Shown piece after piece: positions 1,673 to 3,232 of a DNA stretch of 38,228 nucleotides (positions within the stretch are counted from its first letter, which is position 1; the number at the start of each line of letters is the position of its first letter). A program made the translations under genes and the position numbers. Below the pieces are notes generated by a model. It was not told the DNA's origin. It ran no database searches and saw only the letters and a list, made by a program, of their open reading frames with translations. Origin of the DNA: an uncultured SAR86 cluster bacterium (GTDB lineage Bacteria > Pseudomonadota > Gammaproteobacteria > Magnimaribacterales > D2472); the NCBI GenBank assembly GCA_902624425.1, contig CACNXK010000007.1, positions 1-38,228 of the forward strand, written 5' to 3'.

Positions 1673-3232
1673 CTAATTTTTTATTTTAGTTACTGTCTCT
1701 ATTTGGCCATCAAATTCATTCAGAAAATCTTTAATTTCAGAATCATTTGAAAGTTCTTTTTTTGTGTCTTCAATATCTTTAAGTTTTTTTTCTTCGTTAA
1801 TTTTGTTTGGAGAAGATGAAGATATTCCCTCTTCTAAAACAACTTCAATTTTACCAAATTTCTCATTAACCTTATCTTGAAACTCACTTAGGATTTTTTT
1901 AGGAATATCAAGCTGATCTTTTGGTCCACACAAAAATATATTTTTGTCATTACTTTTAACAAATGAAAGATTTCCAAAATAATTCTTAGCAAAGGATGAT
2001 AACTGCAATTTGTTAAAAAGATCAGGCCATGAGGATGAAGTTATTTGTTCATTTTCATGAACAACCTTATTAACTATCTGTTTTTCCTTTTTAGTTTCTT
2101 TTGCTGCAGCTTTGTTAGTCTTTTTTTTTTGAGTTTTTGAATCGCCTTCATTTATATTTTGAACAGGCTGGAAGGCTAACATCCTTAATAAGCACATCTC
2201 CACCGCTTCTCTTGGTGAAGGATGGGTGTGGATTTTTTGGAAAGAATTAAGCCCTATTTCATAGATAAGTTGGCAAAACTGAGGATCGATTTTAGAGGCA
2301 ATATTTGAAATAGATTCATTATTTGAATCGCCAATAACTTGATGCAAAGAAACTTCATGAATATTTGAGATTAAGTCTTTCAAAAGAGATTCATAATCTG
2401 GATTAAGTTTTTCGATTTCACTCAATGTCATGAATGCGTCCTCTTTTCTTCCATCTACAATAGATTCAAGCAATTCATGTATCAAACTGTCGTCTATGGT
2501 GCCTAAAAGATTTTTTACTTCATGTGCATCTAGTTTTCCACTCCCATGAGCAATAGCTTGATCAAGCAATGTTAAACCATCCCGAACAGATCCATCAGCT
2601 GCCTTTGCAACTAAAGAAAGAGACTCATCATCTGATTTGATTCCTTCTTTTTTACAGATATTCCTGAAGTGCTCGCAAAGTTCAGGCCTAGATACTGTTT
2701 TTAAATTCAATTGCAGACATCTCGAAATCACTGTTTTGGGAACCTTTTCAGGGTCTGTGGTAGCCATAAGAAAAATTACATGACTTGGTGGCTCTTCTAG
2801 CGTTTTCAGAAGAGCATTAAAGCTGCCTTTAGAAAGCATATGAACCTCATCGATTAAAAAAATCTTATATCTGGAAACGCTTGGCGATGTATGAACAGAC
2901 GAAAGAAGTTCTCTCATATGCTCGACTCCAGTTCTTGAAGCAGCATCAATCTCAAGAAAATCAATACTTTTTCCCTCTTGAATTCCTATAGATGACTCAC
3001 ATTTTCCACAAGGTTCTGAGGTTGGAGAGTCAGAAGACATACAGTTAAGACATTTAGCGAGTAGCCTTGCAATTGTTGTCTTTCCTACTCCTCGAGTCCC
3101 ACTAAAAAGAAAAGCCTGATGGACTCGATTCTGCTCAATACTATTCTTGATTACTTGAACTATATGATCCTGGCCAATAACTTCATCAAAGGAGTTTGGC
3201 CTATATTTTCTTGCAAGAACTTGATACGACAT
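1673..3232 (-). CDS. dnaX: DNA polymerase III tau subunit (gamma by predicted frameshift)
   Basis: The clamp-loader ATPase that loads the beta clamp and, as tau, ties polymerase cores together. The start is taken as the ATG at 3232 (M-S-Y-Q-V-L-A-R-K-Y-R-P, the usual DnaX opening) rather than an in-frame TTG three codons earlier; 519 residues. Seen: Walker A G45-T-R-G-V-G-K-T52, zinc-module cysteines C64, C75 and C78, Walker B D-E-V-H-M-L, and the S-R-C sensor/arginine-finger motif. The fourth zinc cysteine expected near residue 81 is serine, with an extra cysteine at 61. Domains I-III end near residue 370, followed by a lysine-rich linker and a tau-specific C-terminus. The linker starts at a run of ten A residues that would allow a -1 frameshift to gamma. 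Sits between recX and recR. Confidence 0.96.
   Translation of the reverse strand: MSYQVLARKYRPNSFDEVIGQDHIVQVIKNSIEQNRVHQAFLFSGTRGVGKTTIARLLAKCLNCMSSDSPTSEPCGKCESSIGIQEGKSIDFLEIDAASRTGVEHMRELLSSVHTSPSVSRYKIFLIDEVHMLSKGSFNALLKTLEEPPSHVIFLMATTDPEKVPKTVISRCLQLNLKTVSRPELCEHFRNICKKEGIKSDDESLSLVAKAADGSVRDGLTLLDQAIAHGSGKLDAHEVKNLLGTIDDSLIHELLESIVDGRKEDAFMTLSEIEKLNPDYESLLKDLISNIHEVSLHQVIGDSNNESISNIASKIDPQFCQLIYEIGLNSFQKIHTHPSPREAVEMCLLRMLAFQPVQNINEGDSKTQKKKTNKAAAKETKKEKQIVNKVVHENEQITSSSWPDLFNKLQLSSFAKNYFGNLSFVKSNDKNIFLCGPKDQLDIPKKILSEFQDKVNEKFGKIEVVLEEGISSSSPNKINEEKKLKDIEDTKKELSNDSEIKDFLNEFDGQIETVTKIKN
2114..2130 (-). promoter_or_regulatory. Predicted -1 programmed frameshift site in dnaX
   Basis: On the coding strand the frame reads CAA AAA AAA AAG ACT AAC, so it contains the heptamer A-AAA-AAG in the same phase as the E. 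coli dnaX slippery site, inside a run of ten A. A -1 slip gives AAG GAC TAA, i.e. one aspartate and then a stop. The short product would be about 372 residues, ending just after clamp-loader domain III, as E. coli gamma does. An AAGG stretch lies about 18 bases upstream of the heptamer, and an 8-bp hairpin with a GAAA loop lies at 2045-2064, about 55 bases downstream. Neither stimulator is at the E. coli spacing. Slippage could be ribosomal or transcriptional, the latter as reported for the A-run of Thermus dnaX. Confidence 0.75.

Follow-up and report, generated by a model that had tools for sequence, protein, structure and literature searches.

The window analyzed here, a 38,228-nucleotide stretch of contig CACNXK010000007.1, derives from a SAR86 genome (Gammaproteobacteria; 963,240 bases, 79% complete) and has an A+T content of 66%. 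It encodes DnaX, the tau subunit of DNA polymerase III, and every one of the closest named relatives by DnaX (82-90% identity) is an uncultured SAR86 cluster bacterium. The gene recR (1074-1670) lies directly after dnaX, with no ybaB/ebfC between them; the usual gene order is dnaX-ybaB-recR. The features of the locus are as follows:

1673-3232, minus strand: dnaX, encoding DNA polymerase III tau (519 aa counted from ATG; identified by Pfam, NCBIfam, and PDB matches)
2147-3232, minus strand: domains I-III (AAA+ ATPase, lid, and oligomerization), common to both products (PF13177, PF22608, PF12169)
2121-2130, minus strand: ten consecutive A in the coding strand, candidate slippage site (from sequence and conservation)
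2120-2126, minus strand: heptamer A_AAA_AAG, phased as in E. coli and conserved in the window's own genus only
2115-2120, minus strand: GAC TAA in the -1 frame, end of a predicted gamma-like product of 372 aa
2074-2076, minus strand: TAG stop in the +1 frame, predicted product of ~385 aa from mRNA with 9 or 12 A
1697-2080, minus strand: tau domain V-like, alpha-binding region, absent from the short product (PF12170; 5fku)

The A run is located ~71% through dnaX, directly after domain III. The coding strand at the site reads TCA AAA ACT CAA AAA AAA AAG ACT AAC AAA, with the part from CAA to AAC at 2131-2114, the ten A at 2130-2121, and the next base (G) at 2120. An earlier, sequence-only reading of this DNA had noted the ten A, the heptamer in the E. 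coli phase, a -1 slip that meets TAA after a single GAC codon, and a short product of about 372 residues, all of which agree with the gene: GAC occupies 2120-2118 and TAA 2117-2115, and the predicted product comprises DnaX residues 1-371 plus D, for 372 residues. The -1 frame would be reached either through an mRNA longer by one A or through a -1 ribosomal shift; its stop is 6 nt after the run, and that of the +1 frame 47 nt after it. The part of DnaX encoded before the run aligns with residues 1-367 of E. coli gamma, and thus the short product would have all three clamp-loader domains. These domains end near residue 355-362. The likeness to the end of E. coli gamma drawn in the earlier reading does not stand, given that gamma (431 aa) extends ~58 residues past the 373-residue domain I-III construct. 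For the C-terminal part, PF12170 was matched by nine of nine SAR86 DnaX C-termini tried (E = 2.2e-4 for the window's own, 8e-8 at best), and the tau C-terminal region of the window shows a weak match to the E. coli tau C-terminal domain (5fku). The site should therefore, as predicted from the encoded domains, give a clamp-loader-only (gamma-like) product.

dnaX was obtained from 103 of the 107 genomes of the family, yielding 95 distinct genes with a readable site (the set omits G043 (L187), which has many stops, and G096, in which the contig ends before the site). A run of 9-11 A occupies the site in 94 of the 95 genes (A10 in 77, A9 in 14, A11 in 3, and A8 in 1). Synonymous breaks in the run, which the sequence-only reading had proposed looking for in relatives, did not appear: none of the 95 genes has a synonymous G inside the run, and three successive codons of the run end in A in 92 of 92 main-phase genes, compared with 56-97% for conserved Lys/Glu columns within domains I-III of those genes. 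Of 40 dnaX genes sampled from three additional families of the order, 39 have 9-10 A at the same place; the sole sampled dnaX of the SAR86 order without the run (L227; G162) has 7 A at its longest, a natural loss. Among other Gammaproteobacteria, such a run was found at the site in 3 of 60. Unrelated genomes with a GC content of 0.56-0.71 also carry A9-A10 at the site (L062, L066, L071, L104, L105, L108, and L293), and base composition therefore cannot explain the run there. Separately, a common AAA AAA AAA run was observed near the end of dnaX, at codon 524, in Fonsibacter/Pelagibacterales-like sequences (L102, L106, L109, and L111).

Within the family (n = 95) the codon phase of the run is phase 1 in 93 genes, phase 0 in one, and phase 2 in one; across the rest of the order the phases divide 16/16/7, and six phase changes are placed on the tree. 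Conservation in relatives thus holds for the run and for a nearby -1 stop, and fails for the phase across lineages. In 97% of family genes, both off-frame stops fall within 30 nt, vs. 41% at other linker/C-terminal positions (statistics that include the row for genome G056, read at a later A9 run), and both are close in the other families of the order as well (90% vs. 49% at other positions). In the window's own genus, the -1 stop is 6-9 nt after the run, and the +1 stop is 5-29 nt after it in the relatives. Judging from these comparisons, SAR86 conserves the homopolymer rather than the heptamer of E. coli, and the A run is almost certainly a real, selected, order-wide recoding site.

Such runs are scarce in the rest of the genome. 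A pattern search of all 963,240 bases found two A10/T10 runs, whereas Markov models of the window (order 1-5) predict ~90-190, and the run in dnaX is the only one within a gene. The other A10 of the genome (L191, 1501-1510) lies between genes, 6 nt ahead of an inositol-monophosphatase ORF, and is likewise present in G001 (L336). The remaining 37 coding genes of the window contain neither A9+ nor T9+ runs, compared with expectations under synonymous shuffling of 3.4 (a count as low in 0 of 300 shuffles) and 2.1 (as low in 7 of 300), respectively. Genes here thus exclude long A/T runs, with dnaX as the exception. A coding A10 was also observed in a gene for a FAD-dependent oxidoreductase (DAO) (L325, 1001-1010); it is conserved in three sister species (also in L330 and L337), and the gene is a second candidate for slippage in the window's genus. 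Coding A10 runs in glycosyltransferase genes and a PNPOx-like gene (L326, L333, and L334) are found in one species each.

In two relatives, dnaX is off frame by one base at the run, with the tau part downstream of the run intact: G006 (L188; contig as AG-447-G17, L048), which has 11 A, and G056 (L158), which has 8 A. Elsewhere in the G006 assembly, A10 runs sit in intact ORFs, and general homopolymer error is therefore not evident. The two genes represent either one-base assembly errors or natural versions with slippage-dependent tau. It is conceivable, but we think unlikely, that the arrangement in some SAR86 lineages (G006 and G056) is reversed, in that gamma would be encoded in frame and the essential tau would be made via slippage, with run length drifting and transcription acting as the buffer.

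We consider it probable (roughly 0.66) that SAR86 produces two forms of DnaX from one gene by RNA polymerase slippage of the Thermus type. RNA polymerase would slip on the A10 run, generating dnaX mRNAs with varying numbers of A; those with 10 (or 10+3n) A would be translated to full-length tau, and those with other counts would be read into one of the remaining two frames, reach a nearby stop, and thus yield a clamp-loader-only, gamma-like protein (here 372 aa with one additional A, and ~385 aa with one A fewer or two more). The outcome would be DnaX with and without the alpha-polymerase-binding C-terminus, as in Thermus thermophilus, for which two reports describe two dnaX products generated by transcriptional slippage on 9 A (PMC1088944, PMC5009743). 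As in T. thermophilus, SAR86 dnaX has one open tau frame, 9-10 A after the clamp-loader domains, and nearby stops in both other frames, and an mRNA hairpin would not be needed. The two differ in the position of the run, which in Thermus is about seven-eighths through the gene (PMC1088944); furthermore, for SAR86 we infer the occurrence of slippage, its transcriptional nature, and the product ratio from sequence. The conserved run is independent of phase, which favors slippage on a homopolymer over an E. coli cassette, and the close stops in both off-frames also favor slippage because a -1 ribosomal shift needs just the -1 stop. In addition, coding T runs are avoided as well as A runs, which favors slippage by the polymerase. 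Against the proposal, avoidance of A/T runs can also stem from replication slippage, and in the window's own genus the +1 stop is farther away than the -1 stop (the 47 nt of this genome). The sequence-only reading had put transcriptional slippage on an equal footing with an E. coli-type shift; we rate it as better supported.

The alternative closest to E. coli is a programmed -1 ribosomal frameshift at A_AAA_AAG in the window's own genus, ending at GAC TAA, which we regard as rather unlikely. The heptamer is in frame with a nearby -1 stop in the window and seven close genus members, and is correctly phased in all eight frame-intact, phase-1 close members of the genus; it has been reported as more shift-prone than any other site in E. 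coli (PMC5009743), and tRNA-Lys(UUU) is the sole tRNA-Lys detected in the 79%-complete genome. The heptamer, immediate -1 stop, and tRNA-Lys(UUU) of the genus suit ribosomal -1 shifting too, which counts against the transcriptional proposal, and there could be a ribosomal contribution in this genus via the retained heptamer. However, of 94 family genes, just 8 have A_AAA_AAG in frame, and all 8 come from the window's genus; outside it, the run is followed by T (mostly AAT), C, or a non-Lys codon, or consists of nine A, such that the heptamer is gone but the run is kept. The first four A of the run are also conserved, although this type of shift would not need them. The E. coli DnaX element (RF00382) had no match in the 107 family genomes (the E. 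coli control was positive), and an Rfam scan of the window locus returned only chance matches to eukaryotic snRNA/snoRNA, far under threshold. Shine-Dalgarno-like stimulators ~10 nt upstream show no excess (32/95 vs. ~25/95 at random sites), and the upstream AAGG is not conserved within the genus. No stable structure was found downstream, where the 60 nt after the run have less structure than the gene has elsewhere (mean z +0.85). The lack of RF00382, of Shine-Dalgarno excess, and of downstream structure therefore favors homopolymer slippage over the E. coli cassette, and the initial description of the site as E. coli-style is not upheld. A hairpin at 2045-2064, previously noted near the site, was rejected as an element of it; the hairpin is confined to this genome and is absent from every relative's locus.

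Ribosomes might also slide on the A run in either direction without E. coli-type stimulators, possibly in addition to transcriptional slippage. E. coli ribosomes are known to slide on iterated AAA (PMC4363877), and sliding would likewise account for the both-frame stops and the indifference to phase; however, sliding on Lys codons does not predict avoidance of coding T9+ alongside A9+, and we judge nine to ten A to be short for it, leaving this explanation decidedly unlikely. It is very improbable that the run has no function and follows from the Lys content of the linker and the AT richness of the genome: AAA is indeed the commoner Lys codon in family dnaX genes (3369 vs. 1022) and the linker is rich in Lys, but the expectation from codon usage of an uninterrupted run is 0.40 per genome (with the G056 row again included), or ~2e-9 if only 22 genera are counted as independent. 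Moreover, other genes show selection against A9+, and the run is also present in the lineages with a GC content of 0.56-0.71. Toggling of tau at the DNA level by a replication-slippage (phase-variation) tract seems scarcely credible; G006 and G056 are off frame exactly at the run, as such a tract would have it, but tau is expected to be essential, phase-compatible runs of 9-11 A are present in all except these two, and either of them may be an assembly error.

Transcriptional slippage, the reading we prefer, can be set beside other dnaX systems. SAR86 shares with E. coli the gene and the kind of short product and, in the window's genus only, the same heptamer with a stop one codon later; unlike E. 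coli (RF00382), it is without a Shine-Dalgarno stimulator or stem-loop, its heptamer is not conserved beyond the genus, and the run in the window has ten A vs. six in E. coli. In Chlorobi and others, dnaX is split into two ORFs with 10 A (GeneTack, PMC3711429). Both these two-ORF genes and SAR86 dnaX have 7-10 A where slippage joins or separates (in SAR86, would join or separate) the tau and gamma frames, and G006 and G056 resemble the two-ORF form, whereas nearly all SAR86 genomes encode tau in a single open frame. Blochmannia dnaX is likewise an AT-rich gammaproteobacterial gene for which poly-A slippage has been proposed (PMC3017870), but the Blochmannia tract lies downstream of an E. coli-type site and repairs tau; furthermore, Blochmannia genomes contain 114-153 coding A9+ tracts (PMC3017870), whereas SAR86 avoids such tracts.

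The production of two products from dnaX by slippage is already known, and SAR86 is clearly a new case of a known trick; a literature search found no paper that joins SAR86 and dnaX. To our knowledge, the gamma form of DnaX outside a few model bacteria, and how it is made, are mostly unstudied. If slippage takes place as proposed, dnaX reads with 9, 11, or 12 A would be expected in SAR86 metatranscriptomes. The E. coli and Thermus solutions may thus alternate within one bacterial class, and an essential replication gene would carry a selected slippage site throughout an entire order of abundant, uncultured marine bacteria.
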